Part shown: positions 27,746-51,391 of the stretch, one piece after another | How the letters are laid out: the number at the start of each line of letters is the position of its first letter | How positions within the stretch are numbered: the first letter of the stretch is position 1 | Origin: Halobellus litoreus | GTDB lineage: Archaea; Halobacteriota; Halobacteria; Halobacteriales; Haloferacaceae | Assembly: GCF_024464595.1 (NCBI RefSeq) | Contig: NZ_JANHAW010000002.1 | Span: forward strand, 1 to 64,000 | Direction of reading: 5' to 3' | Length of the DNA: 64,000 nucleotides | The notes under the pieces: generated by a model | Seen by the model: the letters and a program-made list of their open reading frames with translations, nothing else | What the model was told of the DNA's origin: nothing | The model's database searches: none | Made by a program: the position numbers and the translations under genes

Positions 27746-28285
27746 ATGGATCCTGGTGAGCTCAGAGGGCCGGTCCGCGAACGAGCCGAACAGTCGGTCC
27801 CCGCTGACACGCTCTTCGAGGTGCTGAGCAACCGTCGTCGACGACTCGCCATTCAGGTACTGCGGGAGGCGGACTCCCCGATGGACATCGGCACACTCGC
27901 GACGCAGATCGCTGCTCGCGAGAACGACATCGACCCGGCCGCGGTCACACACCGCCAGCGGAAGAGCGTCTACACCGCTCTTCACCAGAATCATCTCCCG
28001 AAACTCACTGAGGCCGGGTTCGTCACTGCGGATCGCGAATGGGTGCGGTTACGACTGACGGACCGGGCAAGTCTTCTCGAGTCGCACCTCCACCGAGACG
28101 AATCGAGACGGAGCAGGCCACTCTGGCAGGTCGCTCTCGCGACCGGGCTCTCGACGACGGCCGTCGTCGCATTCGTTCCGGGGTCGAATCTTCCAACCGT
28201 CGGAGTGACGTTGACGGTTACGGTCTGCGCCACGCTCGTCTGCTACTGGCTGTTCGGCGAACGCCCACCATCGACCGCTGCCTGA
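27746..28285 (+). CDS. DUF7344-type HTH regulator with membrane tail
   Basis: A 179-residue haloarchaeal regulator. An N-terminal winged helix (about 20-105: LFEVLSNRRRRLAIQVL, DIGTLATQIAARE, then VYTALHQNHLPKLTEAGFVT) resembles the DUF7344 family. Two C-terminal hydrophobic segments (about 128-146 and 149-168) would anchor it in the membrane. It ends 172 bases before the giant surface-protein gene in the same orientation, so it may regulate that locus, which is inference from position only. AT-rich elements at 27695-27713 are its likely promoter. Confidence 0.83.
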   Translation: MDPGELRGPVRERAEQSVPADTLFEVLSNRRRRLAIQVLREADSPMDIGTLATQIAARENDIDPAAVTHRQRKSVYTALHQNHLPKLTEAGFVTADREWVRLRLTDRASLLESHLHRDESRRSRPLWQVALATGLSTTAVVAFVPGSNLPTVGVTLTVTVCATLVCYWLFGERPPSTAA

Positions 28286-28416: not shown

Positions 28417-28461
28417 ATGTACGATTCAGACAGACGCCCCTACGACAGAGCATCGATATGA
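28417..28461 (+). CDS. Possible 14-residue leader peptide
   Basis: A mini-frame MYDSDRRPYDRASI whose TGA overlaps the ATG of the giant gene (ATGA, 28458-28461). No TATA element stands at leaderless distance, so the support is only the overlap. No clear promoter for the giant gene was found in 28286-28457; a weak GC hairpin lies near 28371-28385. Confidence 0.2.
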   Translation: MYDSDRRPYDRASI

Positions 28462-31400
28462 CGAACAAGACACGAACACGACTGTTAGCGGTCCTCGCGG
28501 CGATATTTATGATTACGTCGCCGATGGCCGGCGTCGCCGGCGCGTCGGTCGTCGATGACGCCGGGACGTCGCACGCGCCCGAATCGAGCCAACAGCTCGA
28601 ACCGCCAGCCTCGGGTGGTAACGCAGACCGTGTGTCCCAGACGGAAAGCCAACAGCGGGCCAGCCAACCCGTAGGAGAACAGGCCGCCATTCAAACCGGT
28701 GGAGCGGTGGCCGAGATCCAACCACCAGGATTCGACACGGAGACGGTGCTCTCCGGATTGAACCAACCCACTGCAACCACGTTCCTGCCTGACGGTCGAA
28801 TGCTCCTCTTACAGAAGGGCGGCGAGGTGCTGATCGTCAATCCGGAGACTGGGGCGACGTCGACGTATATGACGATCACGGACCTCGACACCGCCGGTGA
28901 GGAGGGACTGATCGACCTCACGCTCGATCCGAACTTCCAACAGAACAACTACGTTTACCTCTATTACACGCCCGAATCCAGTGGAAAGAATCGGATCGCC
29001 CGGTTCACTCACCAGGAGAACGGGGGCGGGCTCCAGAGCACCGCGGATCCGTCGAGCGAGTTCGTGGTCTGGGAGGACAACAGCGAACGAAAAAGTAACT
29101 ACCACCACGGTGGTGGGCTCGACTTCGGCCCCGACGGGAAGCTCTACTTGACGATCGGAGAAGAAGTCGATGGAAACCAGGCTCAGGACCTGACCGAGGC
29201 CGGCGGCTCGGTGATCCGCGTCAACAAGGACGGCACGATTCCGCAGGACAACCCGTTCGTCGACGGATCGGGTGGAAACGTCGACGCGATCTGGGCGTAC
29301 GGCCTGCGCAACCCCTTCCGTGCGGAGTGGGACCTCCAGGCGGAGAATCCGCGCTACTACATCGCGGAAGTCGGCGGGAATCAGCAGTCCGTCGCACAGG
29401 AGGACCTCCACATCGGCGAGAAGGGTGCCAACTACGGCTGGCCCAACTGCGAGGGCGAGTGCAGCAACTCGGAGTACACCGACGCGCTGTACACCTACCC
29501 GCACGAGGGGTCCGGCGCCTCGATCACCGGGGGCGTGGTCTACCACGGTAACCAGTTCCCCAGCGAGTACGAGGGCGCCTACTTCTTCGCCGACTACGTC
29601 CGTGGTTGGATGAAGTACCTCACCTTCGACAGCTCCGGCGAGGTGCAGAGCGTCAACACGTTCGACGATAACGTCGGACCGGTCGTCGAGATCGATCAAG
29701 GACCGGACGGGTCGCTGTACTACCTCGACATCGGTTCCGGAACGCTTCAGAAGGTCACCTACGACGACACGACCGACGCCGAACCGACGCTCGACGCGCC
29801 CGCGAACGTCTTCGTGGACGCAGACGGGAGCAAACAGATTGACATCACCGCCTCGGACGCTGACGGCGATCCGCTGACGCTGACCGTCGAGAATCTCCCG
29901 GGCTTCGCCTCGTTCACCGACGACGGTGACGGGACAGCTACGCTGTCGCTGTCGCCTTCCTCCGCTGACACCGGGCAGTATCAGACGACTGTAACCGTCA
30001 GTGACGGGGACGACACCACCAGCCAGACGGTTACGATTTCGGTGATCGAACCGGGCGCCGAGCAGATCCTCTACAGGCTGAATGGTGGCGACTCGAGCGT
30101 ACAGGCTGTCGACGACGGTCCCAACTGGGAGTCGGACAGCCTGTACGAGCAGGGGAGCGTCGACCAGTCCGACTGGTCGGGAACGACCTACTCGGTCGGC
30201 CAGGCGGTGCCGGCGACGACCCCGGACGCCATCTTCGAGAGCGAGCGGTGGCCGGCCGACGACAACACGCTCGAGTACGACCTGCCAGTCTCTTCCGGTG
30301 ACACCTACGAGGTCCGGCTGTACTTCATCGAGCAGTACAGCTCCGCCCAGAACCCCGGTGATCGGGTGATGGACGTCTCGATGGAAGGGCAGACCGTCCT
30401 GAACGACTACGACGTCGTCGCCGACGTCGGCTACAAGAACGCGACGATGAAGTCCTTCGAGGTGACCGCCGACGACGGCACTCTCGATCTCTCGATCGCG
30501 CAGGACGGCGGCAGCAACAACGCCCTCGTCTACGGCATCGAGGTACTGAAGCCGAGTGATGACACCAGCAACCAACCGCCGAGCGCTTCGTTCACCGCTT
30601 CGCCGTCCGATCCGACGACGGGCGAGTCGGTCACGTTCGACGCGTTCGGATCGAGCGATTCCGACGGCTCGATTCAGAGCTACGAGTGGGACTTCGACGG
30701 CGACGGAACCACCGACGCGATGGGCGAGAGCGTCTCGCAGGCGTTTACTTCGAGCGGTGACCAGACGGTCGAACTCACCGTCACCGACGACGACGGCGCG
30801 ACCGCGACGACGACCCAGACGGTGAGCGTCTCCTCGACCCAACAGGGCCAGCAGGTGCTCTACCGCGTGAGCGCCGGCGGACCGGAGATCCAGGTCCAAG
30901 ACGGCCCCGACTGGGAGAGCGACACCGGCACCTCGCCCAGCCAATACCGCGTGGGCGGCGGTGACGGTACCACGGACTGGAACTCGTTCACCCCCAATCC
31001 CCCGCTGCAGTACGACGTCGGGTCCGCGGTGCCGGCGGGCACGCCCGATGCCGTCTTCGAGTACGAACGATACGCCAACGACGGGTCCGTCGATTGGGAG
31101 TTCCCGGTCACGCAGGGCGAGACCTACGAGGTCCGGCTCTACCACATCGAGCAGTACAGCGAAGCCAACGGCGCCGGCGAGCGAGTGATGGACGTCTCGA
31201 TGGAAGGCCAGACGGTCCTGAACGACTACGACGTGGTCGCTGACGTCGGCTACAAGAACGCCACGATGGAGTCTTTCGAGGTGACCGCCGACGACGACAC
31301 CCTCGATATCTCCGTCGCTCAGGACGGTGGGGAACACAACCCCAACGTCTTCGGCGTCGAGGTGGTCCAACCCGGAACTGACGGCGCGAACCAAGCGCCA

Positions 31401-34400
31401 GAGGCGACGATCGACGCGCCCGCCGACGGGTCGTTCTTCCAAGCCGGCGACACCATCGACTTCTCCGGGTCGGCGACCGATCCGGAGGACGGCTCACTCT
31501 CGGGCACGGACCTCGAGTGGACGGTTCGGTTCCTCCACAACGAGCACTGGCACCCGTACCTGGATTCGGTGTCCGGTTCCAGCGGGAGTTTCACCGCTCC
31601 GACGAGCGGCCACGACTTCCACGACGACACGGCGTACCAGATCAACCTCACGGCGACTGACTCCGAGGGCGCCACCGACACTGCGACGGTGGTCGTCGAA
31701 CCGGACAAGGTCAATCTGACCTTCGACACCCAGCCGAGCGGACTGGAGATCGACCTCGACAGCATCCCGCACACCACTCCTTACGTCCACGACTCGCTCA
31801 TCGGCTTCGAGCACACTGTCTCCGCGCCGCAGACGCAGTGTATGGACGGAACGGAGTACCAGTTCGAGGGCTGGTCCGACGGCGGCGCGACCCAGCACAC
31901 GATCACGGTTCCGGACTCGGATACGACGTACACGGCGAATTACACCGCTGTCGGTCCGTGTGACGGCGCAGACAGTACGGTCGCTCAGGCCGTGGCGAGC
32001 CAGAACGCGCCGACCGATCAGATCGGCCTCCAAGAGATCCAACTCGCGATCAACTGGTGGTCGACGAGCGCGGACGTGCCCAACACGGGCGGGGAGACGA
32101 TCTCCCTGCAGCAGATTCAACAGCTCATCAACGCGTGGTCGACCGGCGCGACCGTCGGCGACGGGAATCAGTCCCCGAGTGCCGCGTTCACCGCTTCGCC
32201 GTCCGATCCCGCGACGGGCGAGCAGGTGAGCTTCGACGCGAGCGGGTCGACGGACTCCGACGGCTCGATCGCGAGCTACGAGTGGAACTTCGGCGACGGG
32301 ACCACCGCCTCAGGCGCGTCTCCATCGCACACCTACGAGAGCGCGGGCACCTACACGGTGACGCTCACCGTCACCGACGACGACGGCGCGACCGCGACGG
32401 CGACCCAGCAGGTGACAGTCTCGGCGCCGCAGACCCAACAAGTGGTCTACCGGCTGAACGCGGGTGACTCCTCGATCACCGCCGTCGACGACGGGCCGGA
32501 CTGGGAGAACGATACCGAGTATCTCCAGGCGGCCGGTCAGCAATCGACGCCCGAAACGTGGGGTGCGAACTACTCGATTGGGGAGGAGGTTCCTGACTCC
32601 ACACCCGATGCCATCTTCGAGAGCGAGCGGTGGACGGAAGCTGGACCGATCGACTACGACATCCCGGTGACTGCCGGGGAGACCTACGAGGTCCGGCTGT
32701 ACTTCATCGAACAGTACGACCCGGCCCAGACCCCCGGTGACCGGGTGTTCGACGTCACGATGGAGGGGCAGACGGTCCTGAACGACTACGACACTGTCGC
32801 CGAGGTCGGCTACAAGAACGCCACGATGGAAACCATCGAGGTGACTCCCCAGGACGGAACTCTCGACCTCACGTTCACGCAGGACGGCGGCTCCGAGAAA
32901 CCGTTCGTCTACGGCATCGAGATCCTGACCGAGGACGGCCAGCAGGCGAATCAGCCGCCGACCGCCGGCTTCCACGTCCACGATCCGGTGGCCGGCCAGT
33001 CGGCCACGTACCACTCAGAGTCGACCGATTCGGACGGGCAGATAGCCAGTTACGAGTGGGACTTCGACGGTGACGGCACCTTCGAGGAGTCGACGACGAA
33101 CGCCCAGATCCAGCACACGTTCGACTCGGGCGGCGACTACGACGTGACGCTGAAGGTCACCGACGACGACGGCGCGACCGACACGGCAACCAAGACTGTG
33201 ACCGTCGCCAGTCAGCCCTCTGAGCAGGTCGTGTACCGCGTGAACGCTGGCGGTCCGGAACTGCAGGCGACGGATGGCGGCCCGAACTGGGCGGTCGACA
33301 ACGCGACAGACGGAAGTCAGAGTCCATACCTCGTCGGCGACGGTGACGTGACGGTCCACGATACGCAGTTCACCGTCACGGACAGCGTGCCCCAGTCGAC
33401 TCGCGACCAGATCTTCGTGACAGAGCGCTACGTCGACCAACAGATGTCGTGGGACTTCCCGGCGACGCAGGGCGAGACCTACGAGGTCCGGCTGTACTAC
33501 GTCGAACAGTGGGATCCCAACGCGCAGGAAGGCGCCCGCATCTTCGACGTGGCTGCCGAGGGTCAGACGGTCCAGAACGACTACGACGTGATGGCCGACG
33601 TCGGCTTCGACAACGCGACGATGAAGAGCTTCACCGTCACGGCCGACGATGGAACCCTCGACATCGACTTCTCGCAGGACGGCGGGGGCGCGTACCCGCT
33701 GATCTACGGCATCGAGATCATCCAGCAGGGAGAGGGCGGGAACCTTCCGCCGACGGCCTCGCTCTCGACGTCGACCACGTCGGGTACCACTGGCCAGTCG
33801 ATATCCTTCGAGGCGAGCGGATCGAACGACCCCGACGGCTCGATCGCGAGCTACGAGTGGGATTTTGACGGCGACGGGGTGACTGACGCGACCGGACCGA
33901 GTGTCTCGCATACCTTCCAGAGTGCGGGCACCTACACGGTCGAACTCGCGGTCACAGACGACGGCGGCGCGACCGCGACAGCCACCGAACAGATATCCGT
34001 CACCGATCCCTCGGCCGGAACCTTCACCACCGAACAGATGGCTGGCGGTCTCGACCAGCCCGTCGCGATGGAGGTCCTGCCGGACGACAGAATACTCATC
34101 GTTGAACGTGGCGGCGACGTCCTGATCGCCGAGGAACAGGGGAACTCCCTCTCGACTTCTGAGTACCTCTCGTTGTCGAGCGTCAGTACGAACGGCGAGC
34201 AGGGCCTTCTAGGCGTGACAATCGACCCCAACTTCGAGTCGAACGGGTACGTCTACCTCTACTACACGAACGAGAACACGGACACGAATCAGATCTCACG
34301 GTTCGTTCACCAGGAGAACGGCGGCGGCCTGCAGAGTACGGCCGATCCCACGACCGAGACGAAAATATGGAACAGCTCGATCCAGGGCGACGCCACGTAC

Positions 34401-37400
34401 CACCACGGAGGTGGGCTCGACTTCGGACCTGACGGGAAACTGTACCTTTCGACCGGCGAGCAGTTCACGGCTTCCCGAGCACAGGATCTGAGTTCGACCG
34501 GAGGCAAGATCATCCGGATCAACAAGGACGGCTCGATCCCGTCCGATAATCCGTACGTCAACGACGGCGATCCGAACACCCGCGGTGACGTCTGGGCCTC
34601 CGGGCTGCGCAACCCCTTCCGTGCGGAGTGGGACCATCAGACGAACCGCTTCTTCGTCGCCGAAGTCGGGCTGGACACCGCCGAGGACATCCACCTCGGT
34701 AAAGCGGGAGCCAACTACGGCTGGCCCGACTGCGAAGGCGAGTGTAGCGATCCGGCCTACGACGATCCGGTCTACACGTACGGTCACGACGTCGGTGAAT
34801 CGATCACCGGCGGTGACTTCTACCGCGGATCGCAGTTCCCCAGCGAGTACGAGGGTGCGTACTTCTACGGTGACTACGTCTCCGGATGGATCAAGTACCT
34901 GACCTTCGACTCGGACGGGGACGTCACCGGCAGCCACGACTTCAAGAGCGACGCGAACAACGTCGTCGAGATCGACCAGGGCCCCGACGGATCGCTCTAC
35001 TACATCGACATCAGCGGTTCGGTCCACCGCGTCTCCTTCCAGCCAGCCGAGGAGGGAAGTGCAACCGTTTCGCTCAACGAGGGGAACAGCAACATCGACA
35101 CGAGCACCTGGAAGAGCGGAGCCGTCGAAATCGAAAACACCGGCGACAAGCAGATCGAATCGGTGACGTTCGACCTCTCGACCGCCGCAATGCCCGATGT
35201 CGTCTTCGGACCACTCACGGACAGTGGGACGCCGGGCAACGCGGTCAAGGACGCCTCGGGCGCAGGAGCGTTCCAGACGTCCTACAGCCAGCCGCACGAG
35301 GGTAACCCCGACGACGGTTACGATCAGCTGACGTTCACCTACGACGACTTCCAACCCGGCGAGACGTTCACGGTATCGCTGGACACCGACGCCCTGAGCG
35401 TCAAGGGCGCGACGCCGATCCAGCAGGGGCTCGAGATCTCCGGTCTCGAAACGACGGGAGCCACCGTCACGATCGAGTACGCCGATGGAACGACGCAGAC
35501 GACGTCGCCGTTCAGCGACGGGAGCGCGGCCGGCGCCGTCGCAACGGCCAAGTCGGACGTGCCGGCAGCACCGAATCTCGACGTCCAAGGAGTGACGCTG
35601 GACGGGGGAGCGCTCGACGCACGACACAGCGCGGCGACCGTCTCCTCGGCCCAGCAGACCGTCGAGATCAGTGGAGAGCCCGGTTCGACGGTTCGAGTGC
35701 TGCGCTTCGAGGGCGAACTCAATCTCGAAGGCGTGAGCGGCTACGACCTCGAACCCTACGAGGCGAATCGGATCCTGAACTTCGACGAACAGACGATCAC
35801 TCTCGACAACAACGGTGAGGCGACCGTCGACGTGACGCTCACGAACGGCAGCGCGGCCGGCGGTCTCAACTACATCGTCGCGGTCACCGAGGACGCGCAG
35901 GGCGACACCGGTCTCACGTCGGACCCGATCGTCCTCGACTACGACCCCGGCGCCGCCCAACCGTCGGGCGGCGAGGCGACCGTCGCCATCACGACGACCG
36001 AGGCGGCCTTCCCCGAGGGGAAGGTCACGCTGCAGGACGCGACCACCTACTTCGAGGACTCGGTCCAGATCACCAACACCGGCGATCAGCAGATCGAGTC
36101 GCTCACCATCGACAAGAGTACGTCGCTGATCGAGAATATGGTCTACGATCCGACGGGGTGTGCCGGTGACGGCGGCTGTAACCCCGGCGCTACCGACATC
36201 CGGATCGTGAACGAGGACGGCGCCGTTCTGACCAGCCACGAGTTCCAGAAGCCGGTCAACGGCGTCGACGGCACTGACGGGTACAAGGCGCTGCATATGG
36301 AGTTCGACGACTTCGACCCCGGCGAGACGATCACCTACGCGTCAGACGGCGACCCGAACACCATCAAGGGCGGCGGCGGCCAGCAGTCCGTCCTCGCCGG
36401 CCCCGAGTCCGGCATCGATCTCACGGGCACGACTGTCACCGCGTCGTTCGCCGACGGCACGACTGCATCCTCGGGCACCTTCAACGAGGGCAGTCTCGCC
36501 GGCTCGACCGGCGTCGCGAGAGCGAACGCCCCCGACGCACCCAGCATCGACGCGCAGGACGTGACCCTCCAGGCGACCACGCTCTCGGACAGACACACCG
36601 CCGCGACCGTCGCCGACGCAGATCAGACCATCGAGATCAGCGGCCCGCCCGGCGAGACGGTGCGGCTGATGCACGCGGAGGCGACGCTCCTGCTGGAGGA
36701 CGTTCCGACGTACGACGGCACGCCGGGCTACGACATCGAACCCTACGAGGCGAACAACGTCGAGAACTACACGATCACGGACGTCCAACTCGACCAGAAC
36801 GGTGAGGCCACCGTCGACGCGACGCTCACCAACCTGACCGGTGAGCTGACCTCGCCCGCGGACGAGAGCGGGTTCAACTACTTCGTCGCCACCGTCCAGG
36901 GCGACGACGGACACGCCGGGACGGCTTCGAACGTGATCGTTCTGAAGCTAGAGGAAGGTTCGCAAACGCCCAGCATCCAGTCGGTCGACGACCAGTTCCT
37001 CACCGAGGGCGACTCGACGACCGTCACGGTCGAGGCGACCGACCCCAACGGTGACGCGCTGACGCTGTCGGCGTCGAACCTCCCGGGCTTCGCGAGCTTC
37101 ACCGACAACGGCGACGGCACGGGCACGCTGACGGCATCGCCGCAGACCGACGACGCGGGGGACTACGATATCACGCTGTCGGCCTCCGACGGCGAATACA
37201 CGACGACCCAGCAGGTGTCGATCAGCGTGGCCGAACCCGGCGGCGACCAGGTCGTCCACCGTCTGCACGCGGGAAGCGGTACGATCAGCGCGATCGATGG
37301 CGGTCCTGACTGGGGATCGGATTCCCAGTATATGACGACGGCGGGAGATACGTCAGACTGGTCGGGGACGACCTACACGGTCGGACCCTCGGTCCCGGCG

Positions 37401-39332: not shown

Positions 39333-39336
39333 TACG

Positions 39337-41820
39337 ATGAGGAAACGAACCACCGCGAACGGCTCTTCGGAGGAATCGACGCGGAACGAGCATAGCATCA
39401 GTCGGAGAGACGTGCTTCGCGGCACGTCGGCACTCGGCGTCGCCGGAATGGCGTCGAGTCTGACCGTGGGACGGGCCCAGGCGGCGCCCGACGAGACGAC
39501 CTTCGTGAGCGTCCCGGATATGTACAACTGGGACATCGCCAACCCCCAGTCCGGCTGGGAGGACGCGGTCGACTGGTTCTTCGACCAGCTCACGTCGGTG
39601 GAGGGTGCCGAGTTCGCCCTCTCCGCTGGAGACATTATGGACGCCCGCTGGTGGTCCGATAAACAGCAGGTCAAGACGCGGGCAGACGAATACTGGCGTG
39701 GCTACAAACAGCGGTTCGAGAACAGCAATCTCCCGGTGTACGTCGCTCCTGGCGACCACGAGCGGGGCGACAACGACTGGCCCGACTGGAAACTGGACCT
39801 GGTCCCCACGTTCGAACAGAAGTTCGTGGAGATCTTCGATCACCCTACGAACGGTCCGACGGGAAAAGAGGAACTGGCCTACTACTTCGTTACGGACAAC
39901 GCCCTGTTCGTCACGGTCGATACGTGGGAGCTGAAGAACGGAGAGGTGCACCTGAGCGTTACCGGCGACCAGCTCACCTGGTTCGAAAACACCCTCTCGA
40001 ACCACCAGGACAAGGACTTCATCGTCGTTCAGGGCCACGTCCCGGTCATATCCGGCGTCAACACCCGGAATTCGAGCGGGCTATACCTGGAAGGTGGGCG
40101 GTCGTCCGGGTTCTGGCAGGCGATGAAGCGGTACGGAGTCGACGCCTACCTGTGTGGCGAACACCACGCCATCACCACCGACAAGGTCGACGGTATCTGG
40201 CAGATCGTTCACGGCTCCCTCTGGGGGACGCACACGAACCTGAACTACCTCGTGGGAACCGTGGGATCGGACACGCTCGAACTCGAACTCAAGGAGTTCG
40301 ACGTGAGTTACGGCGGGGGGTACATCGACCACATCAATCGAGGTGATACGAATGCGCCCCGCGAGGAGATCACGATCTCCGACAGTGCCAAACAGAACGG
40401 TCCCGCCACAATCGAGTCAATCACGATCGACAGCGCTGCGTCCGACAACCCAGACAGCGGGGGTTGTCCGGTCACCGAAATCGTGCCCGACCTGACCGAT
40501 AACGGCAACGACGGCACGATCGAAGGAACCGTCTCGCAGGTCTCCGCCTACGACAGCAACGGATTGCAGTTCGACGGCGGGTACGTTACCATCCCGGAGA
40601 GTCCCGGTATCGACGTGACAGATCCACCGCTCACGGTGGAGTGTTGGGTCAAGCCCACCGACCCGAAAGCCGGTGGGAACGGGTACGAGCCGTACGTTAC
40701 GAAGGTTGGAGAAACGGGCCAGTACTCGCTCCACCGGACTTCTCTGGCGAACGACGCGAACGGTCAACTCGAGTTCGCGGTCAGCTCCGAGGGAGAATTC
40801 TATACGCCCCACTCGCCCGTGCCCGACGACTGGCAAGGAACCTGGCATCACCTCGCCGGTGTGTACGACGGCAGCGCGGTCAAACTCTACGTCGACGGGG
40901 AAGAGAAAGACAGCGTCTCGCTATCCAGTCCACTCGCGGATACGACGAGTCCGGTCGAAATCGGTCGTAACTTCGGGAACCCCACGCGAAAACTCACGGA
41001 CGGGACGATCGTCGACCGGGTGCGAATCCACCGGGCAGGACTCGCGGCGAGCGAACTCGACCAGTCGGACCCCACCGAGAGTGAAAATCCCGTTCTGTGG
41101 TTCGACTTCGAGTCGATCGAAACCGACGCGACCGGTGCACCGACGGGTGACACGTACCTGAGTGATCTCGAGGCGATCGACTTCACTGTCGGCTACACCT
41201 TCGAGGATTTCGGCAGAGACGAGGCCGTCACAGGCAATCCGCTGCAAGTCGACGGCCAGACGTACGACAAAGGCATCGGGACGCACGCGACCTCGGAGAT
41301 ACGATACTGCCTGGATCGGAACGCCGCCCGATTCAAGGCGAAAGTCGGTATGGACGAGAAAGGCGGCGAGTTCACCGGCGGAACTGCAGGCGGGGACGGC
41401 GTCGTGTTCCGGGTGCTCGGTGACGGGCAGATTCTCACCGAGCAGGGCCCGGTGACCCATCCGGAAGGGGCCGTCTCCATCGACGTCGACGTTTCCGACG
41501 TCAGCGTGCTCACGCTCGTCGCCGACGGCGGTGGCGATACTTCCTACGACCACGCTGACTGGTTACAAGCGCGCGTCACGACCCAGACCGTTCTCGAGGC
41601 GGTCGCAGGGCCCGACGGAACGGTGGGCTTCCAGGAAGTCCAGGAAGCCATCAATATGTGGGCGAGAGCGGAGCCCGTACCGGGAACCGGCGGCGAGACG
41701 ATCGACTTCCAGCAGATCCAAAAGATCGTCAATCAGTGGGCGACCGGTGCGACCGTCGGCGACGGCAGTGAAGCCACGTCGGAATCGTTGACGTCGATAA
41801 TCGACGCGGGGGGTGACTGA
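39337..41820 (+). CDS. Tat-exported metallophosphoesterase with carbohydrate-binding modules
   Basis: An 827-residue exported protein. The Tat signal SRRDVLRG (22-29) ends near AQA/A. Calcineurin-like phosphoesterase domain (about 53-330) has GDIMDARWW, APGDHE, QGHVPV and CGEHHAI. The first metal motif (normally D-x-H) reads PDMYNWD, and GNHE is GDHE, so activity may differ from typical members. A LamG/concanavalin-like module (about 390-580, GYVTIPESP ... VRIHRAGLAASE) and an NPCBM-like module (about 607-747, GYTFEDFG ... YDKGIGTHATSEI) should bind sugars. A duplicated-helix dockerin-like module (about 748-811, VGFQEVQEAINMW / IDFQQIQKIVNQW) follows. The gene starts 4 bases after the giant gene, so they are co-transcribed. 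Confidence 0.9.
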   Translation: MRKRTTANGSSEESTRNEHSISRRDVLRGTSALGVAGMASSLTVGRAQAAPDETTFVSVPDMYNWDIANPQSGWEDAVDWFFDQLTSVEGAEFALSAGDIMDARWWSDKQQVKTRADEYWRGYKQRFENSNLPVYVAPGDHERGDNDWPDWKLDLVPTFEQKFVEIFDHPTNGPTGKEELAYYFVTDNALFVTVDTWELKNGEVHLSVTGDQLTWFENTLSNHQDKDFIVVQGHVPVISGVNTRNSSGLYLEGGRSSGFWQAMKRYGVDAYLCGEHHAITTDKVDGIWQIVHGSLWGTHTNLNYLVGTVGSDTLELELKEFDVSYGGGYIDHINRGDTNAPREEITISDSAKQNGPATIESITIDSAASDNPDSGGCPVTEIVPDLTDNGNDGTIEGTVSQVSAYDSNGLQFDGGYVTIPESPGIDVTDPPLTVECWVKPTDPKAGGNGYEPYVTKVGETGQYSLHRTSLANDANGQLEFAVSSEGEFYTPHSPVPDDWQGTWHHLAGVYDGSAVKLYVDGEEKDSVSLSSPLADTTSPVEIGRNFGNPTRKLTDGTIVDRVRIHRAGLAASELDQSDPTESENPVLWFDFESIETDATGAPTGDTYLSDLEAIDFTVGYTFEDFGRDEAVTGNPLQVDGQTYDKGIGTHATSEIRYCLDRNAARFKAKVGMDEKGGEFTGGTAGGDGVVFRVLGDGQILTEQGPVTHPEGAVSIDVDVSDVSVLTLVADGGGDTSYDHADWLQARVTTQTVLEAVAGPDGTVGFQEVQEAINMWARAEPVPGTGGETIDFQQIQKIVNQWATGATVGDGSEATSESLTSIIDAGGD

Positions 41821-42030
41821 GGGATGACAGAAGCGTCGGCCGTGCCGATGACGGCAGGATCGCACTCCGCTCTCGCTCGAGGACAGCCGACGCTTCTCCC
41901 CGCCAGTCTCCGCGCACGAGGGCTGACGGCTGTCTCCGGCTCTACTACCGTCCCCAGTCCGGGAGGACCGCAGAGTAGACGCAGACGGCCGGAGCGGGAC
42001 TGCCAAAAGGAGCGCTTCACGCGGCGAGAC

Positions 42031-42080
42031 GGATTAACTATCAAATTAGTATGGTAAACAACAGAACAAAACCACAATGA
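42031..42080 (+). promoter_or_regulatory. AT-rich promoter and mini-frame before PKD protein
   Basis: An AT-rich stretch (42031-42050) with TTAACTAT and CAAATTAG elements lies 27-43 bases before the ATG at 42077, suggesting a separate promoter for the last three genes of the locus. A 9-codon frame (42051-42080, MVNNRTKPQ) ends in an ATGA overlap with that start. The rest of 41821-42030 shows no gene. Confidence 0.45.
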
Positions 42081-45000
42081 ATCACATCGCTCCACGCACC
42101 GGTCGGATCACCGCTGTGCTCGTAGCGCTGCTACTCGTCACATCGGTCTTCGGCCCGATCGGGACGGTGGCAGCAGAACCAGGCGTATCGATCTCCCAGA
42201 CGGCCACGTCGGGAACGACGGTGGCCCCCGGAGAAACGATCACGATAGAAGCGACCATCGACTATACAGACGTCAACGGGCCCGGGATCAACGCCACAGT
42301 TCCCGACGGCTGGTCCGTCATCAGCCACAGCGACGACGGCGGCACGTACGGACCCCCACAGCCCGCGTGGATCTGGCTGGCTGGCGGCGAGACCGGTGCG
42401 AACGGGAATCACACTGTCTCGTACACGGTGCAGGTCCCCACTGACGCCTCGTCAGGTGACTACACGTTCTCTGCCGCCGGATCGGCCGGCAACCCCGCCG
42501 GCGGACCGCTTCTGGAGAGCACCGACGAACTGACCGTCACGGTCCAGGAGAACCAGCAGCCGAGTGCCTCGTTCTCGGTGACCCCGTCTGATCCGGGGGC
42601 CGGTCAGACAGTGAGTTTCGACGCCGCGGGATCGAGCGACCCTGACGGCTCGATCGACTCTTACAGTTGGGACTTCGGCGACGGGACGGCCGCGACTGGA
42701 GCCACGCCCTCGCACACCTACGATAGTAGCGGCAGCTACACCGCGACGCTCACCGTCACCGACGACGACGGTGCGACTGCGACGTCCCAACAGACGGTCT
42801 CGGTGTCCCAGGCGAATCAAGGACCCACAGCGTCGGTCACCCTATCGCCGACCGACCCAGAAGTCGGTCAGACGGTGAGCTTCGACGCCTCGGGATCGAG
42901 CGATCCAGACGGCTCGATCGCGAGCTACGAGTGGAACTTCGGCGACGGAACGGCCGCGACCGGGGCCACGCCCTCGCACGCCTACGACAGCACGGGCACC
43001 TACCAGGTGAACCTCACTGTCACTGACGACGACGGCGCGACCGCGACCGACACGACCGAGGTGACCGTCGAAGAGACCGAACCGACTCTGGATCCGAGCG
43101 TGTCGATCACCCAGACGGCGAGTTCGTCGACGTCGGTCCAGCCCGGCGACACGGTTTCCGTCGAGACAACAATCGACTACGCCGACGTCAACGGTCCCGC
43201 CATCGACGTCACGCTCCCCGACGGTTGGTCCGTCACGAGCCACACTGACGACGGCGGGGCGTACGGACCGCCAGAGCCCGCGTGGGTCTGGAGTCCAGAG
43301 GGCGGTGCGACCGGTGCGACCGGGAGTCACACCGTCTCCTACACAGTTCAAGTGCCCGCTGACACCTCCCCCGACGACTATACGTTCGCCGCCGAGGCCT
43401 CCGGCGTCGCCCCCGGCGATCAGTCGTTCGTGAACGACACGACCGACCTCACCGTCACGGTCCAGGCGCCGCCGAACCAGTCGCCGACGGCCGACGCCGG
43501 TAGCGACCAGACGGTCGAGGAGGAAACGGCAGTCACTCTCGACGCCTCGGGATCGAGCGATCCCGACGGCTCGATCGATTCTTACGCTTGGAGTCAGTCC
43601 GGTGGCCCGGCGGTCAGTCTCTCGGACACCGCCGCGGCCCAGGCGACGTTCACGGCTCCGAACGTCGACACCGAAACCACGCTCACGTTCACGGTCGAGG
43701 TGACTGACGAGGACGGTGAGACCGCGACCGACACGATCGAGGTGACTGTCGAACCGACCGCGCCGACTCTGAACCCGAGCGTCTCGGTCGCTCAGACGGC
43801 GACCTCGCCGACGTCGGTCCAGCCCGGTGACACGGTTTCCGTTGAGGCGACTATCAACTACGCCGACGTCAACGCCCCCGCTATCGACGTCACGCTCCCC
43901 GACGGCTGGTCCGTCGCCAGCCACAGTGACGACGGTGGCACCTACGGTCCCCCACAGCCCGCGTGGGTCTGGGGCCAACAGGGCTCGGAGACCGGTCTCA
44001 CCGGCATCAACACCGTTACGTACACAGTGCAGGTGCCCGCTGACACCTCCCCCGGCGATTACACGTTCGCCGCCGAGGCATCTGGCGTCGACCCCAGCGA
44101 CGATTCGTTCACGACTGATACGACCGACCTGACCGTTACCGTCCAGGCACCCGTCAATCAGGATCCGGTAGCGTCGGTCTCGGCGACACCGTCCGATCCC
44201 GAAGTCGGTCAGACGGTGAGCTTCGACGCCTCGGAGTCGAGCGACTCTGACGGGTCGATCGCTTCGTACTCGTGGGACTTCGGGGAGGGAACCACCGCGA
44301 CCGGGGCCAACCCCTCGCACACCTACGACAGCGCAGGCACCTACACGGTGACGCTCACCGTCACCGACGACGACGGCGCGACCGCGACGGCGACCCAGCA
44401 GGTCACCGTCAGTCCAGCGCCTAACCAGGCCCCCTCGGCCGGGTTCACGTCGTCGCCGTCTGCTCCCACTGTCGGTCAACAAGTGACTCTCGACGCGTCC
44501 GGCTCGAACGATGCTGACGGCAGCATTGAGAGCTACCAGTGGACGATCGAGACGCCCGGCACGACGGGCGAGACCACCCTCCTCGACACCGACTTCGAGG
44601 CGGACTCGCTGGCGGCCGCTGGCTGGACTCACGGACCGGCCGACGGAACGGCGTCGGCCGGCGTAAGCGACGCCACGTCGAACTCGGGCAGTCAGTCGGC
44701 CTTCCACCAGGGCGGCGCCGGCGCGTTGGTTTCCCCATCGGTCGACGCCACGGGATCCCAGTCGATCGAAATCGACTACTGGGTCCAGAAGGGCCACGAC
44801 GACTTCAGCGAGAACCCCGACGCGAACGACGAGGAAGACCTCGTCGTGGAGTTCCTGGCGTCCAGCGGCAACTGGGTCGAGATCGGGAGAATCGAATCGA
44901 CGGCATCGCCCGGTGCGATCGTCGACGAGAGTGTCGTACTCTCGGACGCCGCTGCACTTCACGACGGCTTGCAGGTTCGCTTCCGCCAGCAAGGTGCTGA

Positions 45001-45430
45001 CGCTACGAACGGCGACTACTGGCACGTTGACGACGTCGCGATCACCACGACTACCGAGCAAAATCAGGACATAACGATGACAGGAAATACGGCGACGTTC
45101 ACTCCGTCGACGACTGGTGACTACGAGGTCACGCTCTCCGTCACCGACGACGACGGAGCGACGGATTCGACGTCGCAGACGATAACCGTTGACGAATCGA
45201 CACCGGACGATCAATCGATCTCGCAGGCCGTTGCGAGTCTGAACGACGCCGGTGACGACTCCGTGATCGGTACCCAGGAGATCCAACAGGCGATCGATCT
45301 CTGGGTTGGGAACGATCCCGTCCCAGGTACCGGCGGCGAGACCATCTCGACTCCGCAGATTCAACAACTCATCGACAGTTGGGTCGGGGACGAGACTGTC
45401 GACTCCGCCAACGGAGGTGAAAACGAATGA
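42077..45430 (+). CDS. Exported PKD-rich surface protein with dockerin-like module
   Basis: A 1,117-residue exported protein. Signal peptide (1-33). Three copies of a roughly 120-residue beta domain (34-157, 340-465, 567-690), each with VTLPDGWSV-type, YGPPQPAWVW and TVQVPADTSPGDYTF segments. Several PKD domains (158-245, 247-333, 694-780) and a REJ/PKD-like domain (468-561). From 784 a PKD domain is interrupted by about 155 residues of a jelly-roll-like module (LLDTDFEADSLAAAGW ... YWHVDDVAITT) and resumes at TATFTPSTTGDYEVTLSVTD. A duplicated-helix dockerin-like module (1046-1112) ends the protein. No enzyme domain or membrane anchor is seen, so it is probably a structural or binding component. 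It overlaps the next gene by ATGA. Confidence 0.9.
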   Translation: MNHIAPRTGRITAVLVALLLVTSVFGPIGTVAAEPGVSISQTATSGTTVAPGETITIEATIDYTDVNGPGINATVPDGWSVISHSDDGGTYGPPQPAWIWLAGGETGANGNHTVSYTVQVPTDASSGDYTFSAAGSAGNPAGGPLLESTDELTVTVQENQQPSASFSVTPSDPGAGQTVSFDAAGSSDPDGSIDSYSWDFGDGTAATGATPSHTYDSSGSYTATLTVTDDDGATATSQQTVSVSQANQGPTASVTLSPTDPEVGQTVSFDASGSSDPDGSIASYEWNFGDGTAATGATPSHAYDSTGTYQVNLTVTDDDGATATDTTEVTVEETEPTLDPSVSITQTASSSTSVQPGDTVSVETTIDYADVNGPAIDVTLPDGWSVTSHTDDGGAYGPPEPAWVWSPEGGATGATGSHTVSYTVQVPADTSPDDYTFAAEASGVAPGDQSFVNDTTDLTVTVQAPPNQSPTADAGSDQTVEEETAVTLDASGSSDPDGSIDSYAWSQSGGPAVSLSDTAAAQATFTAPNVDTETTLTFTVEVTDEDGETATDTIEVTVEPTAPTLNPSVSVAQTATSPTSVQPGDTVSVEATINYADVNAPAIDVTLPDGWSVASHSDDGGTYGPPQPAWVWGQQGSETGLTGINTVTYTVQVPADTSPGDYTFAAEASGVDPSDDSFTTDTTDLTVTVQAPVNQDPVASVSATPSDPEVGQTVSFDASESSDSDGSIASYSWDFGEGTTATGANPSHTYDSAGTYTVTLTVTDDDGATATATQQVTVSPAPNQAPSAGFTSSPSAPTVGQQVTLDASGSNDADGSIESYQWTIETPGTTGETTLLDTDFEADSLAAAGWTHGPADGTASAGVSDATSNSGSQSAFHQGGAGALVSPSVDATGSQSIEIDYWVQKGHDDFSENPDANDEEDLVVEFLASSGNWVEIGRIESTASPGAIVDESVVLSDAAALHDGLQVRFRQQGADATNGDYWHVDDVAITTTTEQNQDITMTGNTATFTPSTTGDYEVTLSVTDDDGATDSTSQTITVDESTPDDQSISQAVASLNDAGDDSVIGTQEIQQAIDLWVGNDPVPGTGGETISTPQIQQLIDSWVGDETVDSANGGENE

Positions 45431-47472
45431 TCGACGGAACGCCACGCAGCAGGCGCTTCGCAGCGGTCGTGTTCGCGCTGGTGGTCGGACTGTCGGTTCT
45501 CTCACCGGCAGCCGCTATCCCACAGCCAGCCGACGCCGTCGGTATCGAGCAGACCGCGGGCCAGTCGGTGGTTTCACCGGATCAGACGGTCACGATCGAA
45601 ACGACGATCAACGCCAGCGGCTACAACGCACCGGCGCTGGCGGTCGAACTCCCCGACGGGTGGTCGATCCAGAGTCAGTCGGCGCAGGGGCCAGCTACTT
45701 TCAAGCCCTCGACCAACGAGTGGGTCTGGCTGACTAGTGGCGAGTACACCGTCACCTACTCCGTAGCGGTCCCGTCCGACGAGGCCGACGGTGACTACAG
45801 CATCACCGCCGACGGCTCGGCGATCGACCCGTCCGACGACAGCTTCGTCGACAACGGTGCGTCGACGACGATCACCGTCCAAGCGCAACCGACCAACCAG
45901 CCGCCGAACGCAGACGCGGGCGACGACCAGACGGTCGACGAAGGGTCGACCGTGACGCTCGACGCCTCCGGATCCGACGATCCGGACGGCGACAGCCTGA
46001 GTTACTCCTGGAGCGTGACCGACGACGCGAATACGGGCGTGACGCTCTCCGACGACTCCTCGGAGACGCCCTCGTTCACCGCCCCCGACGTCGACGGCGA
46101 CCAGACGCTCTCGTTCCAGGTCCAGGTCTCCGACGGCGAGACCACCGACACCGACACCGTCGAGGTTACAGTCCAGGATACCGACGACGGAGACCAACCG
46201 CCAGCGGCCGGCGTGACCGTTTCGCAGTCGGCTCAAGCGGCGTCGGTCGCGCCCGGTGAGACGGTGACGTTCGACGCGTCGATATCCACGACGGCCGCGA
46301 ACGCGCCGGCGCTCGACGTGACGCTACCGTCGGGCTGGTCGATACAGAGCCAGTCCGCCGACGGTCCCGCCACGTTCAAGCCGGCTACCAACGAGTGGGT
46401 CTGGCTTTCGGGCGGTGACTACACTGTCACTTACACCGTGAGCGTGCCTTCCGGTGCGACCGGCGGGCAATACGACGTCACCGCCGACGCGTCGGCTGTA
46501 GACCAAGCCACCGACGAATTCGTCAGCGACTCGACGACGACGTCGGTCACCGTCCAGGCGCAGCCAACGAACCAGCCGCCGTCCGCCGATTTCACCGTGT
46601 CTCCGACCGAACCCGAAGTCGGCCAGACGGTGACGTTCGACGCGTCCGCTTCCACGGACGACGGTTCCATCACGTCCTACAACTGGGACTTCGCTGACGG
46701 TGAGACCGCCTCTGGCGAATCCGTCACCCACACGTACGACGACGCGGACGCCTACCCCGTAACCCTCACCGTCGTCGACGATGACGGTGCGATGGATATG
46801 AACGTCCAGACCGTCTCCGTCAGCGAACCGACGGAGCCCGAACCCGACCAGTCGACCGCGGTGTCGCTGTCGCCCAGCGACGACCTCGTCGCCGTGAACG
46901 GCACGACCACGTACGACGTGGTGGTCGAGAACGCCGACGGCGGCGTCGGCGCGTACAGTCTCGCCCTCTCCGTCGACGACGGCGAGATCGCCACCATCAC
47001 GGACGTCTCGGCCGACGAGGACGCGATGTCTGACGTCCAGGTCTCCGCCGACGGCAGTTCGGCATCGGCCGACGTGGCGCTGCTCGACACCGAACAGACC
47101 GGTTCCGTCACCGTCGCGACCGTGACGGTCGCGGGCGAGGCGGACGGCGAGGCCGAGATCGGCCTCGAGATGTCCAGCCTCGGGACCGAGTCGGGTGACG
47201 CGTACGACGTCACGGCCGAGAACGGCGCGACGCTCACCGTCTCCGAGCTCGTCGTCGGCGGCGCCGAGCAGCCCGCGCAGGACCCCGACGACGACGGCGT
47301 CTACGAGGACGTGAACGGTGACGGCTCCGTCGACGTGCTCGACGTCCAACTGCTGTTCGCCGAGCGCAACAGCGACGTCGTCCAGAACTCGCCCGTCGCC
47401 TTCGACTTCAACGGCGACGGCGAGTTCGACATCCTGGACGTCCAGAGTCTCTACTACGGGGAGGTCGCCTGA
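45427..47472 (+). CDS. Adaptor-like scaffold: cohesin-like domain plus dockerin
   Basis: A 681-residue exported protein. Signal peptide (about 10-30); two copies (38-153, 258-378) of the beta domain found in the preceding protein; REJ/PKD-like (158-256) and PKD (382-470) domains; a cohesin-like domain (about 475-615: LVAVNGTTTYDVVVENADGG, GAYSLALSVDD, GSVTVATVTVAGEADGEAEI); and a canonical type-I dockerin (621-681) with two calcium loops, DVNGDGSVDVLDVQLLF and DFNGDGEFDILDVQSLY. One protein carrying both partners is the layout of adaptor scaffoldins in bacterial cellulosomes. It overlaps the upstream gene by ATGA and is 6 bases from the next. Binding partners are inferred, not shown. Confidence 0.9.
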   Translation: MIDGTPRSRRFAAVVFALVVGLSVLSPAAAIPQPADAVGIEQTAGQSVVSPDQTVTIETTINASGYNAPALAVELPDGWSIQSQSAQGPATFKPSTNEWVWLTSGEYTVTYSVAVPSDEADGDYSITADGSAIDPSDDSFVDNGASTTITVQAQPTNQPPNADAGDDQTVDEGSTVTLDASGSDDPDGDSLSYSWSVTDDANTGVTLSDDSSETPSFTAPDVDGDQTLSFQVQVSDGETTDTDTVEVTVQDTDDGDQPPAAGVTVSQSAQAASVAPGETVTFDASISTTAANAPALDVTLPSGWSIQSQSADGPATFKPATNEWVWLSGGDYTVTYTVSVPSGATGGQYDVTADASAVDQATDEFVSDSTTTSVTVQAQPTNQPPSADFTVSPTEPEVGQTVTFDASASTDDGSITSYNWDFADGETASGESVTHTYDDADAYPVTLTVVDDDGAMDMNVQTVSVSEPTEPEPDQSTAVSLSPSDDLVAVNGTTTYDVVVENADGGVGAYSLALSVDDGEIATITDVSADEDAMSDVQVSADGSSASADVALLDTEQTGSVTVATVTVAGEADGEAEIGLEMSSLGTESGDAYDVTAENGATLTVSELVVGGAEQPAQDPDDDGVYEDVNGDGSVDVLDVQLLFAERNSDVVQNSPVAFDFNGDGEFDILDVQSLYYGEVA

Positions 47473-47478
47473 AGGACG

Positions 47479-48333
47479 ATGACCGCGATAACAGACCGAC
47501 GCTACGCTCGGTACGGCGCCTGCGCGCTCGCTCTCGTCGTGCTTCTCGGCGGGGCAGTCAGCGTTGCGGCCGCCGCGAGCACCACGAACGTCGACGCGAC
47601 TGCGGAGACTGACCGCCTCTCCCCAGGCGACACCACGGCCATCGACGTCGTGGTCGAGAACGCCGACGGCGGCGTCGGTGCGTTCGAGGCGACGGTGACG
47701 CTGTCGGATCCGGGCGCTGCGTCCGTCGCGGACGTGACTCTCTACGGTGATCCGAGTCTCAGCAACGTGACCGAACGAGCCGACGGCGTCGAAGTGAGTT
47801 CGGCGCTCGCGGACACCGAAGACACCGGACGCGTCACGATCGCGACGGTCGTCGTCAGCGCGGACGAACCGGGAGAGACGGACGTCGACGTGACGATCGA
47901 CGTTCTCGGCGACGAGGACGGCGAAGCGTACGCCGTCGAGACGGTCGACCGTCCGACGCTCTCGGTCGTGGCCGACGACTCGGATGAGGACGATTCGAGC
48001 GACGAGGACGACGAGACGACCGTCACTAGCGTCAGCGAGGCGGTCGACGACAGCGACGACACGGAAGACGTCGCGAACGACCAGGGCGGCGACTCGATTG
48101 ACTCCGACGAAGCGGAAGGCGACAGCACCGGCGGTGATGGTGCTGACGGGACCGCGAGTTCGTCCGACGGCGAGCAGGCCGAGGGCGGACTCGCAGCGGA
48201 CCAATCGGCCGAGGATCGGGGAACCGTCGAGCGGTTCGCGACGTCGCTCCCCCAGCGGCCGTCCCTCCTAGGCACGCTCGGTCTCCTCATCGCCGTCGCT
48301 CTCGGTACCCTCTATCGACGTCTGCGGGTCTAA
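47479..48333 (+). CDS. Membrane-anchored cohesin-like surface protein
   Basis: A 284-residue protein. Signal peptide (about 10-36, ending AAAA); a cohesin-like domain (about 38-168) clearly related to that of the upstream protein (TTAIDVVVENADGGVGAFEATVTLSD; GRVTIATVVVSADEPGETDV); an acidic Ser/Asp/Glu/Gly stalk (about 170-255); then a single membrane helix (LLGTLGLLIAVALGTLY) followed by RRLRV inside. This is the only member of the five-gene set with a C-terminal anchor, which fits an anchoring scaffoldin that holds the others at the cell surface. No PGF-type sorting motif is seen. Confidence 0.9.
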   Translation: MTAITDRRYARYGACALALVVLLGGAVSVAAAASTTNVDATAETDRLSPGDTTAIDVVVENADGGVGAFEATVTLSDPGAASVADVTLYGDPSLSNVTERADGVEVSSALADTEDTGRVTIATVVVSADEPGETDVDVTIDVLGDEDGEAYAVETVDRPTLSVVADDSDEDDSSDEDDETTVTSVSEAVDDSDDTEDVANDQGGDSIDSDEAEGDSTGGDGADGTASSSDGEQAEGGLAADQSAEDRGTVERFATSLPQRPSLLGTLGLLIAVALGTLYRRLRV

Positions 48334-48489: not shown

Positions 48490-49878
48490 ATGGAACTCTT
48501 CGGGACCGCTGGAATCCGCGGGTCGGCGCGAGAACGGGTGACGCCGGAACTCGCGCTCGCCGTCGGGCGTGCGGTCGGCGCCGACGCGGTCGAGTCGGCC
48601 GAGACGGGAGAGAACGCCTCGCGGCGCCCGGTGGTGGTCGTCGGACGCGACGGACGAACCACGGGGCCGGCGCTCGCGGCGGCCGTGGAAGCCGGTCTCG
48701 AATCCGCCGGCGCGGACGTCCGCCGGATCGGCGTCGTGCCCACGCCGGCGCTCGCGTACGCCTCTCGGGGGCGTTACGGGGTGATGCTCACCGCCTCGCA
48801 CAACCCGCCGACGGACAACGGAATCAAGGTCTTCGTCGACGGCGAGGAGTACGACCGGGGGCGCGAGCGGGGCGTCGAAGCCCACGTCGCGGCCGAGGGT
48901 TCGCCAGTCGCGTGGGACGAGTGGGGGATCGCGGAGACGAGCGACGTCCTCCCCGCCTACCGCGCGGCGGTCCTCGAGTACGCGAAGACGCACGGCGCGG
49001 ACGCGACGGGGCTCGACGTCGCGGTCGACCTCGGCAACGGGATGGGGGCGCTCGGGACGCCGCAGGTCCTCCGCGAACTGGGCGCGCGGGTCGTCACCCT
49101 CAACGGACAGATCGACGGCCACTTCCCCGGCCGCGAGTCGAAGCCGACGCCCGAGACGCTGGCCGACCTCCGGGAGTTCGTCAGCGAGGGCGACTTCGCC
49201 TTCGGTATCGGTCACGACGGCGACGCGGACCGGATCGTGATCGTCGACGACGAGGGCGACGTCGTCCACGAGGACACCGTCGTCGCGATCCTGGCCGCCC
49301 ACTTCGTCCGCGCGTCGGACGCGGCCGACCCGGTCGTCGTGACGACCCCGAACGCGTCCGGTCGGATCGACGAGCGAGTCCGCGATGCCGGCGGGCGCGT
49401 CGAGCGGGTGCGTCTCGGCGCGCTCCACGAGGGGATCGCCGCGGCGCGTCGCGACGGTGGCGACGTCGTCTTCGCCGCCGAACCGTGGAAGCACATCCAC
49501 CCGGCCCACGGCGGGTGGATCGACGGGGTCGCCTCGGCGGCCGTCCTGACCCGACTCGTCGCGAGCGAGGGCCTCGACGGCCTCCGCGCGCCCGTCACCG
49601 AGCGACCGTACCGGAAGGTGAGCCTCGACTGCCCCGACGGCCGCAAGGCCGACGCGATGACACAGTTGGAGACGGCGTTGCCGGAGGCGTTCCCCGATGC
49701 CAGCGTCGAGACGGAGTACGGGGTCCGACTGGAGTTCGACGACGGGTCGTGGACGCTGGTCCGCCCCTCCGGAACGGAACCGTACGTCCGCGTGTACGCC
49801 GAGGCCGACGACGTCGATGCGTTCGTGGCGTCGGTCACCGAGGTCGTCGCCGCCGCAGTCGAGGGAGACGGCCACTGA
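48490..49878 (+). CDS. Phosphohexomutase (phosphoglucosamine/phosphomannomutase family)
   Basis: A 462-residue cytoplasmic sugar-phosphate mutase. The phosphoserine loop is MLTASHNPPTDNGIK, the magnesium site FGIGHDGDADR, the sugar-binding loop AEPWKHIHP (a variant of the usual GEQSGH/GEESG type) and the phosphate-binding end RPSGTEPYVRVY. It interconverts a hexose 6- and 1-phosphate for surface polymer or nucleotide-sugar synthesis; which hexose cannot be told. A TATA element TTTATAGG (48460-48467) lies about 27 bases before the ATG at 48490, so it is transcribed separately from the surface-protein locus. Confidence 0.93.
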   Translation: MELFGTAGIRGSARERVTPELALAVGRAVGADAVESAETGENASRRPVVVVGRDGRTTGPALAAAVEAGLESAGADVRRIGVVPTPALAYASRGRYGVMLTASHNPPTDNGIKVFVDGEEYDRGRERGVEAHVAAEGSPVAWDEWGIAETSDVLPAYRAAVLEYAKTHGADATGLDVAVDLGNGMGALGTPQVLRELGARVVTLNGQIDGHFPGRESKPTPETLADLREFVSEGDFAFGIGHDGDADRIVIVDDEGDVVHEDTVVAILAAHFVRASDAADPVVVTTPNASGRIDERVRDAGGRVERVRLGALHEGIAAARRDGGDVVFAAEPWKHIHPAHGGWIDGVASAAVLTRLVASEGLDGLRAPVTERPYRKVSLDCPDGRKADAMTQLETALPEAFPDASVETEYGVRLEFDDGSWTLVRPSGTEPYVRVYAEADDVDAFVASVTEVVAAAVEGDGH

Positions 49879-50028
49879 GTTTCCGGCCCTCGATCCGCGG
49901 TGTCCGTTCGATCGACGGCTCCCGTCGGATACTCGTCCACTTTTCGAGCGGCAGACTGCGGGTGCAGAGACAGAAGCGACGAATTTATGCACATCTCTCT
50001 GCCCATTGTTCTATAGGAGTACACAGCT

Positions 50029-51174: not shown

Positions 51175-51391
51175 GCGCGAACCGGGCTCGGACCGCGTCG
51201 CTCGGACGGGCGGACCGAGTTTCCGTTCGGACCCGCGGACCGACATCTCGTTCGGACCGGCGCCGTTCGGTAACGACTCGTTTGTTCCGCGGCGACCGCA
51301 GCCGCGACCGGTCGATCCGAGCGTTCGCCCGCATACCCGGTCGAATATCCAAACCTATTCGTTCGTCCCCCGTACAAGGGCAGACAGATCT

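Follow-up and report, generated by a model that had tools for sequence, protein, structure and literature searches.

The window, by which we mean the whole stretch of 64,000 nucleotides that was analysed, is the start of a contig in the 3.86 Mb genome (99.9% complete) of Halobellus litoreus. The ORF list of the window has five + strand genes arranged head to tail, here called G1 to G5, and the features of these genes given below by coordinates are all on this strand. G1 and G2 are separated by 4 bases and G4 and G5 by 6 bases, G3 and G4 overlap by 4 bases, and the start of G2 was taken as an ATG within a longer ORF. There is a single N-terminal hydrophobic signal-like segment in each of G1, G3 and G4, both an N-terminal and a C-terminal segment in G5, and a weak TAT signal in G2. 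This agrees with the preliminary description, which had reported five same-strand genes in a row for exported proteins. In the whole genome there were two cohesins (A2 type), one dockerin and three copies of a dockerin-like module, and every copy was located in the G1-G5 locus.

The first three genes encode the cargo proteins. G1 (28458..39332) encodes a secreted protein of 3624 aa, in which Pfam found two glucose/sorbosone dehydrogenase (GSDH) domains, seven malectin stretches and PKD repeats. The first GSDH propeller (28728..29723) aligned with solved sugar dehydrogenases (2ism, E 2.4e-37) and has kept the HHGG and RNP motifs; the second, also found by Pfam, is at 34050..35006 (residues 1865-2183). 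The dockerin-like modules of all three proteins were located by the module search; that of G1 (31989..32165) is internal. G2 (39337..41820) has a TAT-type signal, a metallophosphoesterase-like domain at the N-terminus, LamG and NPCBM domains by Pfam, and a C-terminal module (41590..41766). A phosphoesterase had been claimed for this locus: a weak likeness of the N-terminal domain of G2 to purple acid phosphatase was found (E 0.0017), but Pfam Metallophos did not match G2. G3 (42077..45430) encodes a secreted PKD-repeat protein with a C-terminal module (45227..45406). None of the three cargo proteins has an anchor of its own, and Pfam showed no catalytic domain of a glycoside hydrolase or polysaccharide lyase in any of G1-G5. 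An independent parallel to G2 is present in another haloarchaeal genome (G202, L079:5785-7887), where a metallophosphoesterase is combined with CBM96 and a C-terminal module.

G4 (45427..47472), the adaptor, encodes a secreted PKD protein with one cohesin (46849..47247, residues 475-607) and one C-terminal dockerin (47302..47451), and has no membrane segment of its own. The dockerin is of canonical type I. Dockerin_1 gave 34 bits against the Pfam cut-off of 22.9, the only match of PF00404 in the whole genome, and the duplicated F-hand carries two complete EF-type calcium loops of the form D-x-N-x-D...D (DVNGDGSVDVLD and DFNGDGEFDILD). G5 (47479..48333), the anchor, has a signal peptide, a cohesin (47578..47973, residues 34-165), an acidic stalk (Asp+Glu 35% across residues 170-258), a C-terminal hydrophobic membrane segment (48259..48315, residues 261-279) and an Arg-rich tail; it had no Pfam match. 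Its cohesin-like domain shares 43% identity with that of G4. Both layouts read earlier from the sequence were borne out, a cohesin-like domain with a canonical dockerin in G4 by the modelled fold and the Dockerin_1 match, and a cohesin-like domain with acidic stalk and membrane anchor in G5 by homology to the G4 cohesin, the stalk and the second hydrophobic segment.

A DUF7344 gene (window 27746-28285) adjoins G1 upstream and is a possible regulator. On the 3' side of G5 (window 48490-54216) there are a phosphoglucomutase/phosphomannomutase and, further on, the binding protein of a BMP-type ABC transporter and a permease. Long - strand ORFs at 28809-31442, 42842-45505 and 46324-48204 lie opposite G1, G3, G4 and G5; they are probably not genes and the by-product expected from high G+C codon usage.

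Cohesins of the adaptor and the anchor

Residues 470-681 of G4 were modelled with AlphaFold2 (pLDDT 90), and PDB structures similar to the model were sought. Foldseek ranked 2xdh, a cohesin of Archaeoglobus fulgidus, first (E 5e-9); the best 50 matches that it listed were all cohesins or cohesin-like modules, of various types, and VIA-align gave Z up to 14.5 (126 residues, 2.2 A). As modelled, the G4 domain is a true cohesin fold. An unrelated Ig-like fold, the outcome that the preliminary description had set against its own reading, did not occur for this model. By its homology to G4, the G5 domain is probably a cohesin as well.

The Pfam cohesin model PF00963 had no match in the whole genome, and at E 0.01 or better it recognized 1 of 31 related cohesin domains. 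A PDB sequence search with the cohesin alignment also gave no relevant match. From the Pfam result in the genome one could conclude that the domains are not cohesins, which was overturned by the structural comparison of G4. Because the PDB structural matches are cohesins and only one of the 31 relatives is seen by PF00963, we assign G4, and with it G5, to what appears to be a sequence-divergent branch of the cohesin fold that Pfam misses. The Pfam profile searches proposed earlier had a divided outcome in this genome, with Dockerin_1 matching in G4 and Cohesin matching nowhere. In 293 genomes of the order, the G4/G5 cohesin branch was present in 101, Pfam-type cohesins in 95 and dockerins in 121, and therefore cohesin-dockerin equipment is common in haloarchaea. 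Two dense clusters in haloarchaea of family f7 (G264:C1 ~77600-110300 and G087:C1 ~470300-487400), with 13-14 Pfam cohesins and many dockerins, are candidates for larger cellulosome-like systems.

The dockerin-like module

The duplicated-helix module that had been noticed in the first three proteins was confirmed by the genome-wide search: it is a duplicated unit of ~59 residues, present in one copy each in G1, G2 and G3 (E 8e-31 or better) and nowhere else in the genome. Pfam has no family for it. The AlphaFold2 model of the G2 module (pLDDT 92) consists of two halves, each with a beta part followed by a helix, and the two helices are in the same register. Internal duplication was similar in the modules and in the dockerins of the same loci (half-to-half mean z of 9.5 vs 9.4). 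Dockerins head the structural match lists of the module, with weak scores (Foldseek E 0.6-3, Z ~3.2). On the side of sequence, the Pfam dockerin model did not match the modules, hhalign of the module against the local dockerins gave a nonsignificant E of 0.19, and a position-specific (PSSM) helix-register test of the module against dockerins was ~2-7 SD over shuffles, a test in which individual modules do not differ from random windows.

The first loop of the module is degenerate (AGPDGTVGFQE in G2, APTDQIGLQE in G1), the second loop (GGETI) has no calcium ligands, and the canonical pair of calcium loops was not found in the modules of G1-G3. Because homology is not proven by sequence and the calcium ligands are degenerate or missing, we call the module dockerin-like rather than a dockerin. 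Its first loop is similar to EF-hand 1 of penta-EF-hand proteins (E 0.02). Calcium binding of the penta-EF-hand type was considered and rejected: loop 1 fits in G2 and some relatives and not in G1, and because of this misfit in G1 calcium binding by the module is not claimed. The module may be calcium-independent.

Pfam DUF3717 matched weakly in 9 of 29 module sequences (alignment A4, best E 2.3e-5), a possible family link. A weaker, diverged module-like C-terminus was also found in haloarchaeal proteins of ~335 aa without evident signal peptide. This family (L048, L050, L052, L054, L055, L063) has a helical N-terminal half and a beta-type domain.

Recurrence and plug exchange in other haloarchaea

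The combination of parts in the locus had looked new; it is not unique to the Halobellus litoreus genome, and the cassette recurs in many haloarchaea. A search of the genome collection with the module alignment gave nine loci. In the loci that were mapped, the recurring order is cargo with module, adaptor with cohesin and C-terminal dockerin, and anchor with cohesin. The typical cargo has 2000-2700 aa, malectin/PKD domains and an internal module, and in some loci there is a second cargo with a C-terminal module. Among complete cohesin-only proteins of these loci, 10 of 15 have a C-terminal membrane segment; it is absent from the last cohesin gene of L067, L070, L080, L085 and L089. No hydrophobic segment past the N-terminal signal was found in module- or dockerin-bearing proteins of the loci. 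In Haloarcula amylovorans the row G1-G2-G3-G4 is conserved (identity over aligned parts 65-70% for G1, 82% for G2, 48-56% for G3 and 37-53% for G4), with no G5 neighbour. The search for the same gene order thus found the cargo-adaptor-anchor row repeated, but not the complete five-gene row in this species.

Strong modules, defined by E below 1e-14, were present in 13 of the 293 genomes, and 10 of these 13 have a cohesin within ~10 kb. By random placement this proximity has a probability of ~2e-16, a value that ignores shared descent, and the neighbours were possibly inherited as a block. Two secreted proteins of one genome (G247, 99% complete) carry a module, and neither a cohesin (by A3 or Pfam) nor a dockerin was detected in that genome. 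In both proteins the module is at the C-terminus; one is a trypsin-like secreted protease (L074:6024-7892) and the other a PKD protein (L075:6707-7729).

The strongest evidence for an assembly comes from comparative anatomy. Two cargo orthologues, in L078 (1812 aa) and L080 (1772 aa), have a canonical dockerin at the end and no module, and are 45-54% identical to module-bearing cargo over >1200 residues. In L070 (genome G202) the cargo is split: two neighbouring genes each encode a part of it, and the intact cargo of L073 was used as reference for both. The N-half is 66% identical to L073 residues 86-1292 and ends in malectin and a dockerin, while the C-half is 68% identical to L073 residues 1370-2336 and begins with a signal peptide, a cohesin and a module. 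Each of the ends created by the split thus carries one member of a cohesin-dockerin pair, as would be expected if the pair rejoins the halves. The swap of module and dockerin in orthologues and the split cargo both support docking.

Proposed assembly and known systems

For the binding pairs, the wiring order and the physiological role, what we infer is as follows. The locus would encode a secreted, self-assembling surface complex, in which G5 would be the membrane anchor and show one cohesin on its acidic stalk. The C-terminal dockerin of G4, having no second in the genome, most likely has the G5 cohesin as its partner, and the G4 cohesin most likely takes the dockerin-like modules of G1, G2 and G3. 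The cargo domains suggest binding and oxidation of sugar or polysaccharide at the cell surface, and from these domains alone it may be proposed that the complex captures or oxidizes sugars. That the G4 dockerin docks on one of the cohesins of the locus is predicted with good confidence, and we consider the whole predicted anchor-adaptor-cargo assembly moderately probable; the predicted docking of the modules on a cohesin is somewhat favoured. The locus is real and recurrent, and most likely encodes a surface assembly that is built on cohesins and has a plug of an unusual kind.

Of the cohesin/dockerin assembly proposed in the preliminary description, the cohesin fold, the canonical dockerin, a recurrent cassette and the module/dockerin swap in cargo orthologues speak in favour; on the other side, there is no cellulosome-type degradative enzyme, the module is no standard calcium-binding dockerin, and G247 has modules without cohesin. 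In a more tentative form, which we hold possible with some doubt, there would be a second, calcium-independent cohesin-docking code. An unannotated, dockerin-derived module suited to molar salt and a Pfam-invisible cohesin branch would form two-level surface complexes that capture and oxidize sugars; module and dockerin would be swapped in evolution, and cargo would be split and rejoined by cohesin-dockerin pairs.

It is also conceivable, if unlikely, that the G4 dockerin alone has a cohesin as partner (that of G5 or of another G4), and that the module is an EF-hand-like domain of another kind. It would bind a glycan, calcium, itself or the S-layer, and would be found next to the other genes because all of them encode surface proteins of one function. 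The G247 module proteins without detectable cohesin, the module-like tails in the ~335-aa proteins, the nonsignificant sequence homology to dockerins and the penta-EF-hand likeness of the first loop would all be at home with such a domain. Its exchange with a dockerin in orthologous cargo would not, nor would its tight linkage to adaptor and anchor and its dockerin-like fold and duplication.

The docking principle of our preferred explanation is shared by a different wiring, in which G4 self-polymerises or the modules dock straight on the G5 cohesin, so that chains or a one-level scaffold would form. We regard this wiring as rather unlikely. The 43% identity between adaptor and anchor cohesins is consistent with it, and so is L089, where the adaptor has no cohesin and the last gene has two. 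In the cohesin tree, however, adaptor and anchor labels cluster beyond chance (7 changes vs a shuffled mean of 14.1), and adaptor cohesins from several module loci form one group with a weak support of 84/75. The deep branches of this tree are weakly supported, and two strict clades of adaptor and anchor cohesins were not recovered. It is very improbable that no assembly exists and that the cohesin- and dockerin-like domains represent vestigial or structural beta-sandwich/EF-hand parts of large adhesins, for although PKD/Ig-like adhesive repeats dominate the proteins and the Pfam cohesin model sees a single relative, the cohesin fold match is far above other folds, both G4 dockerin loops are intact, the split cargo of L070 has gained a dockerin and a cohesin at its new termini, and archaeal cohesin-dockerin binding is cited as verified for others in PMC9012536.

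The predicted layout is like that of bacterial cellulosomes, with a surface-attached cohesin anchor, an adaptor with cohesin and dockerin, and cargo with a duplicated docking module. Bacterial cellulosomes, such as those of Clostridium thermocellum, Ruminococcus flavefaciens and Acetivibrio, have an anchoring scaffoldin, an adaptor scaffoldin and dockerin-bearing enzymes. The modelled G4 cohesin has the same fold as their cohesins. Unlike them, however, the Halobellus litoreus locus has one cohesin per scaffold protein and no multi-cohesin primary scaffoldin, its cargo plug is no canonical calcium dockerin, and the membrane segment of G5 replaces an SLH domain or sortase signal. A cohesin scaffold, a dockerin adaptor and a surface anchor occur together in G4 and G5, but plant-cell-wall-degrading enzymes on dockerins were not found in G1-G5. 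Because no glycoside hydrolase was found, the locus is cellulosome-like in layout only, and the earlier comparison holds to that extent, without the degradative enzymes.

The closest solved structure to the G4 cohesin is archaeal, the noncellulosomal Archaeoglobus fulgidus cohesin 2xdh, beyond which we found here a conserved multi-gene cargo/adaptor/anchor cassette and an added dockerin-like module. For ANME archaea, PMC9012536 reports scaffoldin-like proteins with a dockerin and up to five cohesins in a non-cellulose role, and ABC-transporter binding proteins as the common dockerin proteins; such a module or a GSDH/malectin cassette is not described in the passages considered. Haloarchaeal type I dockerins are known on secreted proteins, namely glycosidases of Natronoglomus mannanivorans (PMC10963439) and a GAG lyase (PMC13260240), and the glycosidase dockerins were assigned to substrate binding (PMC10963439, PMC13260240). 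The text on Natronoglomus mannanivorans does not contain the word cohesin (PMC10963439), whereas in Halobellus litoreus a cohesin is in the same gene row as the dockerin. We found no description of the G1-G5 cassette or the module in open-access papers.

L070, with its split cargo gene, offers a direct test of the docking hypothesis. If it is true, the haloarchaeal dockerins, so far described as substrate-binding, would have partners, and a salt-tolerant, possibly calcium-independent docking pair would be available for protein engineering. It would also mean that the cohesin anchor-adaptor-cargo assembly is a general surface technology of archaea, and not a cellulose-specific one of bacteria.
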